NCBI GenBank assembly: GCA_903847405.1
Contig: CAINDP010000011.1
Span: forward strand, 1-32,577
Reading direction: 5' to 3'
Length of the DNA: 32,577 nt
Source: an uncultured Myxococcales bacterium
GTDB lineage: Bacteria > Myxococcota_A > UBA9042 > DTJE01
The notes beneath the pieces are model-generated. The model saw nothing but the letters and a program-made list of their open reading frames with translations. It did no database searches and had not been told where the DNA came from. The position numbers and the translations under genes are program-made. Shown here piece by piece: positions 22,928-32,577 of this stretch (the stretch's first letter is position 1; each line of letters starts with the position of its first letter).

Positions 22928-22948
22928 CCCGGACGGCTTCCGTCAGGG
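22928..22948. terminator. Hairpin between convergent genes, possible bidirectional terminator
   Basis: A nine-position stem with one mismatch closes on a CTT loop (CCCGGACGG with CCGTCAGGG). It spans the 29-base gap between the RidA stop and the stop codon of the convergent gene. There is no T-run on either side, so any termination would need Rho or rely on the stem alone. Confidence 0.3.
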
Positions 22949-25900
22949 CTTGAGAATCGCTTCGTAGTACTGGCGGACCAGGTCCGCGAACGCCTCGGGG
23001 ACCGGCTCGGCCAGGTGTTCCCGGACGGCCCGTTCCAGGTCGTCGGACGCCCTGCGCGAGGCGGCCGGGGGCAGCGTCAACTCTTCGGGATCATCGCGGT
23101 CCGTCAGCCGGCGCGCCAGTTCCATCGAGCCGCGCTCCAGCAGGTGCCGCAGGCGGTTCAGGTCCTGGATCGCCTGGCGCTGGTGGGCCTCTGCCGCCCC
23201 CGGGTTCCACTCGGCCAGCCGGCGGGACGCCTCTTCCATGTTGCGCCGTGCCGACACGGCCACGCCCGCCGCCTCGCCGGCCTCCCCGCCGGCGGCCCGC
23301 CGCATGGCCTCCGCCACGCTCTTCGCCGCGGCAAGGGCCCGTTCCTGGACCTTCTTCTGGTCCAGGAGGTCCGACCGGTCGGCGGAATCGACCAGGGCCG
23401 TTCGATCCCGGCGCCAGGCCGACAACGTATGGGCGACCTCGGCCAGCGCAGGCGCGGCCTTCGCCATTCGCGACGACACCGCCCGCAGCGCGCCCGGGTC
23501 CCCGGGGGCGTCCTCCCGGAAGGACGCCTCCTCCCGCAGGTCCCCGGCCAGCCGCGCGGCACCGGCAGCCGCGTCCTCGGCCACGCGGGCCGCGGTCTCG
23601 AGGTCACGCCCGGCCACCAGATCCGCAAGGTTGGCCACGTCGGCCATCAGCCGGACGACGTCCTCCGCATCGTACCGATCCAGGCGGCCCACCTCGGGCC
23701 GGCCCAGGATCTCGCGCGCCTCCTCGATCCGGCCCTCCATGGCCCGGACATCCGGGGCCCGCAACTGGGCCATCGCGTCTGCTCGGCGCTTCAGCACGAA
23801 GGCCGATTGCGCCGTCCGATCCATGACCTCGCGCTGCAGGCGCCCCGCCAGTCGAAGGTTCGCGCCCACCTCGGCCGGCAGGACCCCTTCACGACCGCCC
23901 GCCAGCGACTGCCGGTCCATCGCCGACCGCCAGGAAGCGACCACGGCGGCCAGGGCCGCTGCGGCGGACCGCAGGGCAGCAGGCGGCGCCCATCCGGACA
24001 CGCGGCTGGACTCGGCCGTCAGGACGGCATCCCGGGCCAGGATGGCGGTCTCACCCAGCCTGCGCGGGGCCAGCCTCGCGGGCCCGCCCTCCAGCGTCGC
24101 GTCCCCTTCCATCCGGCGCCACGCGCCGTCCACCAGGCGCAGTGCCCGCCGCGCCCGGACCAGCAGCCGGGCCGCTTCCTCGGCCGCTCCCGCGGTGCCG
24201 GCGCCCGACGAGATTTCCCGAAGGCGCACCGACCATCGCTCGATGTCGGTCAGCCATCCCGACAGCAGCGCCCGTCGTTCCCGGGCCACCCCGTCGTCCA
24301 GCACCAGGACGGCCTGTTCCACCTGCCGCAGGGCCAGGTCGCGAAGGGTCGAAACGCCCTGTCCCGCTTCCTCCAGCGCACCGGCGGCCTGCTCCAGCAA
24401 AGGCCGCATTGCCGCCGCGTCGCTTTCGCCGGCGGCGGCCGTCGCCGCCTTGCGCACCCGGTCGGCCAGGTCGCGAAGGGCCCGCAACGACACGGGAGGG
24501 AGTCCGGGATTCCCGGGTCCCGGCAGCGCCAGGAGGTCGCCCAGGAGGGCAATCGCGGCGGCGTTCAGCCGCTCCCAGCCTTCCACCAGGGCCAGCCGAC
24601 GCACGGAGGGGACGTCGACGAAGAAGCGCACCGGCTCGCTGCGCCCCGTACCGTCCGCCCGCTGGGACAGGCGGCCGAACCCCTCGATCACGACGTCGAC
24701 CCGCCCGCCCAGGTCCAGGGCGTCGGACGGCATCAGGAACACCAGTTCGCCCGAAGCCTGCCGCAGCCCGGCGGCCACATCCCGCAGGTGGACGCGGAGG
24801 GGCGGGCGATCCGGCTCCAGCGGGAAGGTGTAGACGGCATCGACGCCGGCGATGCCCGTCGGGGAATCGACCAGCCAGCGCAGGAGCGCCGACTCGCCCG
24901 GTTCGACGCCCAGGCGCGCCGGCGCCACCACGGTCACCACCGGGGGCTCGAGGTCCGCCACGGCCAGCCGACGCCGCGCCTCCTCGTCCAGGACCAGGCC
25001 CGGGGGGACCACCACCGACAGGTGCCACTGGCCGGAAGCCCGCACGGGGAAGGTCGCCTTGAAGGCGCCGTCCGGGGCCAGTTCCAGCGGCACACGGGTT
25101 TCGCGCTCCTCTGTTCCTCCCGAGCGCGAAGGCGCAGGCGATGGGTTTCCGGAGGAAACTCTCGCCGGAGCCGAAGCCGACTCGGGACGTTCCAGGGACC
25201 GCAGGACCAGGTGCCCGGTCGTGGCCGGCCGGAACAGGCGGCCCGCCACCTCCACGGAAACGCCCACGGGGGCCGTGATGTCGCCGCTTTCGTCGCCCGG
25301 GATCCGCTCCGGTTCCCCGGAAGGGGACGGCAGCAGAACCGTCGTCCGCAGGTCATAGGCCAGGACGCCCACCGAGGTCGGGGGCCCGACCAGCCACGAC
25401 ACGGGGAAGCGCCCGGACAGGCCCAGGAGGTTCCGCACTCCCCGGGCCGTGAACCAGGGAACGGCCGCCATTCCCAGCAGGGCCAGCACCGCCACGACCA
25501 GGGCCCACCGCATCCGGCGACGGGCCCTGCCGGGCGGGCACAGCACGGCGGGCGATGCGGCGGCCAGAAGACCGGTCAACCGGCGCGCCTCCGCTGCCAG
25601 GAGGGCCGGCGAAAACGAGGTTCCGTCGTCCATCCGGGGCCGGAGGCCCGCGACGGCCTCCACGCCGAATCCCACGGCAGGGAGGCGCCGACGCAGCACC
25701 CGCCCCAGTTCTTCGGGGCGCGCCAGTCGATGGGGCAGGTCCACGAGGAGGTGCATCGACACCCCGCCCCCGCCGACCAGGAGGGCCAGGAGCAGCGTCA
25801 GGCGCACCGGGATTGCGTCGGGCGTCACGGCAGCGAGGCCCACGGCCGCGGCCAGGGCGGCCGTGCAGGCCACGGCCCCCACGGCACCCAGGTCCCGTGC

Positions 25901-25966
25901 CCGTTCGCGGATCAGCATCCGCCGAGCGGAGGCGAGGCTGCTGTCGAGGGCATCGAACGGATCCAT
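22943..25966 (-). CDS. Large DUF4175-like membrane protein with long helical C-terminal region
   Basis: A 1007-residue protein. The N-terminus has paired membrane helices at about 28-50 and 54-76 and a third at about 155-173. The next 400 residues are beta-rich and appear extracytoplasmic, with Ig-like blocks such as [34 protein letters not shown] and [25 protein letters not shown]. From about 470 onward the protein is almost all Ala/Arg/Glu-rich helix. This layout resembles DUF4175-type proteins found near MoxR/Bat-like clusters in other bacteria; no function is established. Residues about 258-284 are encoded by a 78-base palindromic repeat that also occurs in the NUDIX gene; it falls between two strands of the beta-rich part. 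The ribosome binding site is weak. It follows endonuclease III by 46 bases and is the last gene of its run. Confidence 0.72.
25116..25194. repeat. Palindromic coding repeat, copy 1 (inside the DUF4175-like gene)
   Basis: The unit (core 25117-25194) matches 31718-31795 at 71 of 78 positions without gaps. It is an imperfect palindrome with three nested stems: TCCCGAG with CTCGGGA, GGCGA with TCGCC, and GTTTCC with GGAAAC. The gene is read from the opposite strand here and the unit encodes a Pro/Ser/Ala-rich stretch. No target duplication is visible. Confidence 0.85.
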
Positions 25967-31559: not shown

Positions 31560-31671
31560 ATTCAACTAGGGGCTTGCGCCGCGTTGCCCACATGCGGCAG
31601 GATCGCTGTGTTCCCCCGGGTCGACCCCCCGATCGTGTTGCGGCGGAGGTTTGTCCCGGCCAGGAGGCGCG

Positions 31672-32577
31672 ATGGCTGAACCTGGAACCACCTCCCCGAC
31701 GGCCCCGCCCGCCATCCCTCCCGAGCGCGCAGGCGGAGGCGACGGGTTTCCGCAGGAAGCTCTCGCCGGAGCCGAAGCCGCCTCGGGACGCTCCATTGCA
31801 TCGCCCGTCCTTGCGTCCACCGTGGTGGTCCTGAGGCCCCGTCCCGCCGGCCCCGAGGTGCTGCTCATCCGGCGCCCGCCGGGGGGCTATGTCCCGGGCG
31901 ACTGGATCTTCCCCGGCGGGCGGGTGGACGCCGCGGACCTCGATGCCCCGAGCGGCTCGCTGACTCCCTGCGAATGCGGCCGGGTCCTGGGACTGGAGGA
32001 CACCGCCGTTGCCCGGGCCGCGTGCCTTGCCGCCGTTCGCGAACTGTCGGAGGAAACGGGCCTGCTGCTGGCCCGGGACCGCGCCGGGCGCATGGCCGAT
32101 GCCGAAGCGGCAACGTCCGTGGCCCAGGCGTCCCAGAAAGGGGCGTCCGCCTGGCACGCCGCCCTGGAACACCGGGGTCTGGTGCCCGCGATCGACGCCC
32201 TCGCGCCCTTTGCCCACTGGGTCACCCCCGAGGGCCTTCCGAAGCGCTTCGATACGTGGTTCTTCGCGACCCGTTGCCCCGACGGCCAGGAGGCCGCGCC
32301 CTACAACGAAACGACGGGTCTGCGGTGGATCCGCCCGCGGGACGCCGTGGCGGACAACGCCCCCGGGGGCGACATCACCCTGCCGCCACCCACCCTGGAT
32401 GCCCTGCTTCGGCTGGCCGCGGTCTTCGACGCGGGAACCGCCGGCGACACCGCGGGAATCGACGGCCTGCTGGCAGCCTGGGCGCGCCGCGGACCGCCGC
32501 GCGTCCAGCGCCCCGTGATGCTGGCGAACGGCCCGGACGGTCCCATGGTCGTCCTGCCGGGCGATCCCCTGCACCCC
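31672..32577 (+). CDS. NUDIX hydrolase, 3' end beyond the window
   Basis: An open frame of at least 302 codons that runs off the window. A NUDIX fold begins at about residue 45 (STVVVLRPRPAGPEVLLIRR). It continues with WIFPGGRVDAADLD (Gly82-Gly83) and the core of the NUDIX box RELSEETGL (123-131). About 40 residues separate the two halves of the box, more than the usual 14; NUDT7/NUDT19-type enzymes have similar insertions. WFFATRC and NETTGLRWIRPRDAV are later fold elements. The substrate is a nucleoside-diphosphate-linked compound by family; which one is unknown. AGGAGG precedes ATG 31672. Residues 16-42, before the fold, are encoded by copy 2 of the palindromic repeat. Confidence 0.88.
   Translation, partial: MAEPGTTSPTAPPAIPPERAGGGDGFPQEALAGAEAASGRSIASPVLASTVVVLRPRPAGPEVLLIRRPPGGYVPGDWIFPGGRVDAADLDAPSGSLTPCECGRVLGLEDTAVARAACLAAVRELSEETGLLLARDRAGRMADAEAATSVAQASQKGASAWHAALEHRGLVPAIDALAPFAHWVTPEGLPKRFDTWFFATRCPDGQEAAPYNETTGLRWIRPRDAVADNAPGGDITLPPPTLDALLRLAAVFDAGTAGDTAGIDGLLAAWARRGPPRVQRPVMLANGPDGPMVVLPGDPLHP
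31717..31795. repeat. Palindromic coding repeat, copy 2 (N-terminal part of the NUDIX gene)
   Basis: The unit (core 31718-31795) is 91% identical to 25117-25194 with no gap. Outer stem TCCCGAG/CTCGGGA and middle stem GGCGA/TCGCC are unchanged; the inner stem is GTTTCC with GGAAGC, one G-T pair. The NUDIX gene is read along this strand, so translation runs in the opposite sense to copy 1. It adds about 27 Gly/Ala/Glu-rich residues ahead of the fold. Confidence 0.85.

Follow-up and report, generated by a model that had tools for sequence, protein, structure and literature searches.

The window analysed here is a 32,577-nt stretch of DNA from a 5.65-Mb genome (G000; 70% GC) of a relative of the Myxococcales. 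It holds two 79-nt copies of a repeat, 91% identical and oriented along the same DNA strand, each lying inside a predicted gene. This raises the question of how one repeat can be read through in unrelated genes, and on either strand, and what kind of element it represents. G000 was compared with a congener (G001; its contigs correspond to CAIOFV01, 'uncultured Myxococcales bacterium'), with a second congener (G002) and with further genomes, all of them, like G000 itself, draft MAGs.

Two copies interrupt genes in frame

The 79-nt core of copy 2 (31717–31795, plus strand) reads PPERAGGGDGFPQEALAGAEAASGRS in phase 0 of a gene for a NUDIX-domain protein (31672–32577, plus strand). This gene is cut by the end of the contig; contig C10 opens with 141 nt (C10:1-141) that overlap its 3′ part at 100% identity, and C10 therefore probably adjoins the contig end at 32577. 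The sequence-only reading had taken copy 2 for an N-terminal extension of the NUDIX protein. Alignment to the G001 orthologue (L060, G001:C37), which is 80% identical and lacks the repeat, showed instead a net in-frame insertion of 81 nt, or 27 codons (31717–31797). The orthologue has the same AGGAGGCGCGATG start, with its ATG 45 nt upstream of the insertion site. Because the ribosome-binding site AGGAGG (31662–31667, plus strand) and the ATG at 31672, both conserved in G001, lie upstream of the repeat, the latter is internal to the gene, inserted after codon 15; the comparison with the orthologue thus did not place the start downstream of the repeat. The N-termini are MPDPGQTQPTPRPAI-ATPILAST in G001 and MAEPGTTSPTAPPAI-[PPERAGGGDGFPQEALAGAEAASGRSI]-ASPVLAST in G000, and an example of the insert-derived peptide, as predicted by translation, is AGGGDGFPQEALAGAEAASGR. 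The NUDIX domain (PF00293) follows downstream of copy 2 in the same frame, with the Pfam match starting at residue 50. Lying after codon 15 and ahead of the domain, the 27-residue insert probably has little effect on the enzyme.

Copy 1 (25116–25194, plus strand) is read from the minus strand, in phase 2, as a 25-residue peptide. Its host gene (22943–25918, minus strand; 992 codons) has no Pfam match and is interrupted in frame: orthologues in both G001 and G002 lack the insert, which amounts to 84 nt net. Since this gene lies on the minus strand and the NUDIX gene on the plus strand, two copies of the same DNA orientation are read from opposite strands, as the bare sequence had suggested.

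A genus-restricted repeat family

A whole-genome search of G000 with copy 2 as query gave 46 matches. With a covariance model built from 37 copies, to which copy 2 scores 103.5 bits, approximately 124 copies were found at E ≤ 0.01, on both strands and some in tandem, a number that puts the repeat far beyond chance. The consensus is CCTCCCGAGCGCGCAGGCGCAGGCGATGGGTTTCCGCAGGAAACTCTCGCCGGAGCCGAAGCCGACTCGGGACGATCCA; the core measures 79 nt, and insertions add approximately 81–85 nt net. At least 85 copies were present in G001, and G002 contained two relics, one clear and one doubtful. No copies were detected in 50 other genomes from the same family, order, class and phylum. Among GTDB contigs, the exact repeat pattern occurred in CAIOFV01 only, without any further species, and a search of viral contigs gave no match. 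The main G000 subfamily accounted for 48 of the 98 full-length copies and was nearly absent from G001, so its spread postdates the species split; seven G000 copies were identical to the consensus. Older subfamilies are common to both genomes. The repeat is thus a dispersed family restricted to the genus and recently amplified.

Same-site copies or decayed copies were also observed in both G000 and G001 (L205 versus G000:C99:66654, L162 versus C142:38362, and L198 versus C57:3362), so that some insertions are older than the split between these two species. Three copies (L102:3664-3757, L106:4363-4456 and L015:3644-3737) carry a 15-nt insertion of the same type, giving a 94-nt unit; this insertion preserves the reading frame, and two of the three copies lie within genes.

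Hairpin structure

The plus strand of the repeat folds as one long imperfect hairpin. By folding and analysis of compensatory changes, the outer stem of copy 2 pairs 31719–31725 (5′ arm) with 31782–31788 (3′ arm), and the inner hairpin (31738–31767) has arms at 31738–31751 and 31755–31767, all on the plus strand. The element has terminal inverted repeats, TCCCGAG/CTCGGGA, at its positions 3–9 and 66–72. The stem is kept by many compensatory changes. Double changes at four pairs were found among the 98 full-length G000 copies: TA to GC in 39, at the first pair of the outer stem, GC to AT in 34, and, within the inner hairpin, CG to GC in 18 and TA to AT in 16. In G001, 12 of 25 pairs had changed on both sides, compared to 6.0 ± 1.3 in shuffles and 3–7 after sliding. 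One-sided changes on the plus strand produced G·U more often than A·C (19 vs. 5 in G000; 31 vs. 10 in G001), which points to a single-stranded form of the plus strand, either RNA or DNA. A covariance-model search of Rfam 15 gave no match to the repeat, and ARAGORN, run on four loci, placed no tRNA or tmRNA over the copies. At L012:2575-2614, and in short matches of 34–52 nt from the covariance search, the outer stem alone is kept and the inner hairpin is lost.

Insertions in genes and their empty sites

Genes were called with a codon-usage model made for this analysis (GC3 0.918; coding density 0.89). Twenty-five of the 117 mapped copies in G000 lay within genes (24 in called genes plus the NUDIX gene, whose start had been called too late), as did 19 of 65 in G001, giving 44 in-frame coding copies over the two genomes. 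The family is therefore not confined to intergenic DNA, although it is depleted in genes, which make up 89% of the DNA in G000. Intergenic copies tracked intergenic length, with 51 between co-directional genes (44.7 expected), 33 between divergent (38.4) and 4 between convergent ones (5.0). They also showed no orientation bias, 26 lying on the same strand as neighbouring genes and 21 on the opposite one. The idea that placement depends on gene ends or promoters was accordingly rejected.

Most tested coding sites were empty in the sister species. For about a dozen G000 coding copies besides that in the NUDIX gene, a precise or near-precise empty site was found in G001 and/or G002, and approximately 10 G001 coding copies had empty sites in G000 and/or G002. 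Alignments near the insert were ambiguous at C197, C263, C106, C68, L190 and L209; divergent orthologues, for which local DNA alignments were scattered, were compared by protein alignment. Clear net lengths in genes were 81, 84 or 99 nt. An intergenic insertion, in contrast, measured 85 nt and the spacing of tandem copies varied, so divisibility by three appears to have been selected rather than built in. At one G001 coding insertion (L220:2455-2533), the G000 orthologue (L235, G000:C138 near 130434) reads LLLELTPERGGEGREFLPL, in which CCCGAGCGTGGAGGCGAG matches the 5′ end of the repeat, as if an in-frame deletion of an ancestral insert had left a scar.

According to Pfam matches, inserts lie C-terminally in HemD, an endonuclease III-like protein, a response regulator and an OEP efflux protein; N-terminally of the domain in the NUDIX, Memo/AMMECR1, Amidase, OEP and LuxE-like proteins; and between domains in an FAD oxidoreductase (DAO/DAO_C) and a 2-hydroxyacid dehydrogenase. 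In two kinases, read by motif, the insert falls in the activation loop, between the DFG-like motif and APE. Hosts in G001, identified by motif, include transketolase, argininosuccinate synthase and TruB. That the inserts are translated we infer from reading frame and homology. The proposal that the element may create new protein termini failed for the NUDIX protein, where the insert is internal; a few other copies do lie at C-termini.

Reading frames and encoded peptides

All six frames are stop-free in copy 1, copy 2 and the consensus, which bears out the earlier remark that both strands of both copies are open. Yet 24% of dinucleotide shuffles were open in all six frames as well (P = 0.24; P = 0.21 for random genomic 79-mers), so this openness is not special, and it was rejected as a distinguishing property of the element. 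The sequence-only reading had further proposed that an element open in several frames could spread into genes without breaking them. Copies do enter genes in several frames and on both strands, but openness in many frames cannot be the enabling feature since it is expected from a GC content of 70%.

The new finding is instead a preference for two of the six frames, located on opposite strands, whose peptides are the least hydrophobic and near neutral. In G000, the coding copies were distributed as 13 in frame +0 (11 scored, the NUDIX copy and a trimmed tandem copy reading the same peptide), 8 in −2, 3 in +1, 1 in −1 and none in the two others. Frames +0 and −2 together account for 21 of the 25 coding copies in G000 and 18 of the 19 in G001, where the counts were 10, 8, 1, 0, 0 and 0 (P = 3.4e-8, with the two frames fixed beforehand). 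When L213, which has a frame-shifting indel, was scored against the preference, the figure for G001 was 16 of 18 genes (P = 1.7e-6). Each used frame gives a consensus peptide with 2 hydrophobic residues, compared to 4, 4, 8 and 8 in the others; the charge of the used-frame peptides is −3 or +1, and one peptide from another frame contains 10 Arg. Only two frames occur in quantity, although all six are open in most copies. It therefore appears that insertions are filtered by the chemistry of their peptide, and also by the need for a tolerant site and for a net length that is a multiple of three.

Mean column variability was 0.070, 0.145 and 0.097 at element positions 1, 2 and 3 mod 3. Substitutions thus fell without codon-position bias, as had been noticed for the NUDIX frame. 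With no codon-like periodicity in the alignment columns, the peptide itself is not conserved, and the impression gained from the two copies held for the family.

Origin and mobility of the element

We consider it most probable (approximately 85%) that the repeat is a non-autonomous selfish palindromic element, a hairpin mobilised in trans, whose survivors within genes have been filtered at the protein level. As a long imperfect hairpin, the element would multiply within the genome, spreading in the form of single-stranded plus-strand DNA or RNA that an enzyme supplied in trans copies or inserts, presumably with low target specificity and without target duplication. It would land everywhere, and almost all insertions in genes would be purged. 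The survivors would add a multiple of three nucleotides at a terminus, linker or loop, and their reading frame would give a near-neutral, poorly hydrophobic and probably disordered peptide. Such inserts of approximately 27 amino acids are probably harmless to the host proteins. It is unlikely, in our judgement, that the element has itself adapted to coding DNA by encoding benign disordered peptides in one frame per strand, so that either orientation is tolerated. The two used frames share wobble positions. If adaptation had occurred, the element would be dual-strand, 'protein-safe' selfish DNA rather than DNA passively filtered by its host.

The frame preference could in principle be an artefact of gene calling or of stops in the other frames, and frame +1 does contain stops in 19 of 78 intergenic copies in G000 and in 16 of 56 in G001. 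The other unused frames are, however, nearly as open as the used ones. The codon score of frame −2, moreover, is among the two worst (−19.8, compared to −6.8 and −2.5 for the unused or rare frames −0 and −1), so the caller, being biased against this frame, did not create the preference; and the same bias recurred in G001 with the frames fixed beforehand. We regard such an artefact as barely credible. Strong compensatory covariation, the G·U asymmetry of the plus strand and the intergenic position of the majority of copies would also agree with a functional structured RNA or regulatory site (a riboswitch, attenuator or RNA stabiliser) placed by selection, with coding copies as by-products. The lack of an Rfam match, the even spread over intergenic DNA without strand bias towards neighbours, the unrelated host genes and the absence of most tested coding copies from the orthologous site make this reading highly improbable.

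As to the mover, a search for Y1_Tnp/RAYT proteins gave one distant match in G000 and none in G001 or G002. Mobilisation of the repeat as a REP/REPIN by a RAYT, a Y1 tyrosine transposase, would fit its palindromic form, high copy number and tandem pairs, and the single Y1_Tnp protein of G000. This protein (C82:35045) has, however, no copy of the repeat within approximately 18 kb, and none was matched in G001 despite its many copies, or in G002. The 79-nt unit also exceeds the 20–40 bp of REPs and has no conserved end tag, the G000 and G001 consensus differing at the end; we therefore find this origin very unlikely. The repeat could alternatively be a classical MITE, left by deletion within an insertion sequence and moved by the DDE transposase of that sequence, as its short inverted ends, size, copy number and recent amplification might suggest. 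No target-site duplication was visible at the junctions examined, where flanks were 8–30% diverged, and searches of G000 itself, made with the whole repeat rather than end by end, gave no match in which a long insert separates the two ends. A MITE origin is conceivable though rather doubtful; it bears on the mover alone and could hold alongside the protein-level filter. A reverse transcriptase as mover was not supported: a search for RVT_1 found none in G000, and G002, nearly empty of the repeat, has five. One weak partial RVT_1 match was seen in G001.

Relation to known palindromic elements

Rickettsia palindromic elements (RPEs) are hairpin repeats found both between genes and in frame inside the genes of conserved enzymes (PMC2229807, PMC10969869, PMC3767692). 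Like RPE-1, -2 and -3 and the Wolbachia palindromic elements, the present palindrome occurs in intergenic DNA and in frame within unrelated genes, a likeness of behaviour. It differs in its length of 79–85 nt compared to the 105–146 bp of RPE units (PMC2229807), in its host, a 70% GC myxobacterium of 5.65 Mb rather than a reduced intracellular genome, and in its use of two frames on opposite strands, whereas a given RPE reportedly encodes a single conserved peptide (PMC10969869). In enterobacteria, reading frames of the hairpin repeats RU-1 (ERIC), RU-2 and RU-3 are fused to ORFs, sometimes in a shifted or reverse frame, at 24 loci over several species, many of the ORFs being small or hypothetical (PMC2759123). 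These too are small hairpin repeats with in-frame fusions; the family described here differs in that two genomes contain 44 coding copies, of which many interrupt conserved enzymes, and in the empty sites of sister species. REPs of the GTAG and CGTC superfamilies are likewise abundant palindromes, with units of 20–40 bp that carry a GTAG or CGTC tag and some copies inside genes (PMC3733652). In addition to unit size, the missing end tag and the lack of a RAYT in G001 and G002, our repeat is distinguished from them by showing no preference for sites downstream of genes. Archaeal palindromic elements (a 2005 paper, cited in PMC2229807) resemble it in coding potential, as far as that citation describes them, and differ in having an archaeon as host. 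Literature searches, which covered few subscription papers, found no such family reported in Myxococcota, which is weak evidence.

Rickettsia and Wolbachia are the best-known hosts of in-frame palindromic elements, and weak selection in their small intracellular genomes has been a natural excuse. Here the behaviour recurs in a myxobacterium whose genome is large and GC-rich, with over 100 copies and a recent burst. In annotation, inserts of this kind should not be taken for domains, and they can cause start sites to be called wrongly. The sister genomes provide clean before-and-after pairs, among them the genes of transketolase, argininosuccinate synthase, GH35 and the NUDIX protein. With six frames usually open and just two used in numbers, the family offers a natural experiment that can show what kinds of 27-residue insertion a proteome accepts.
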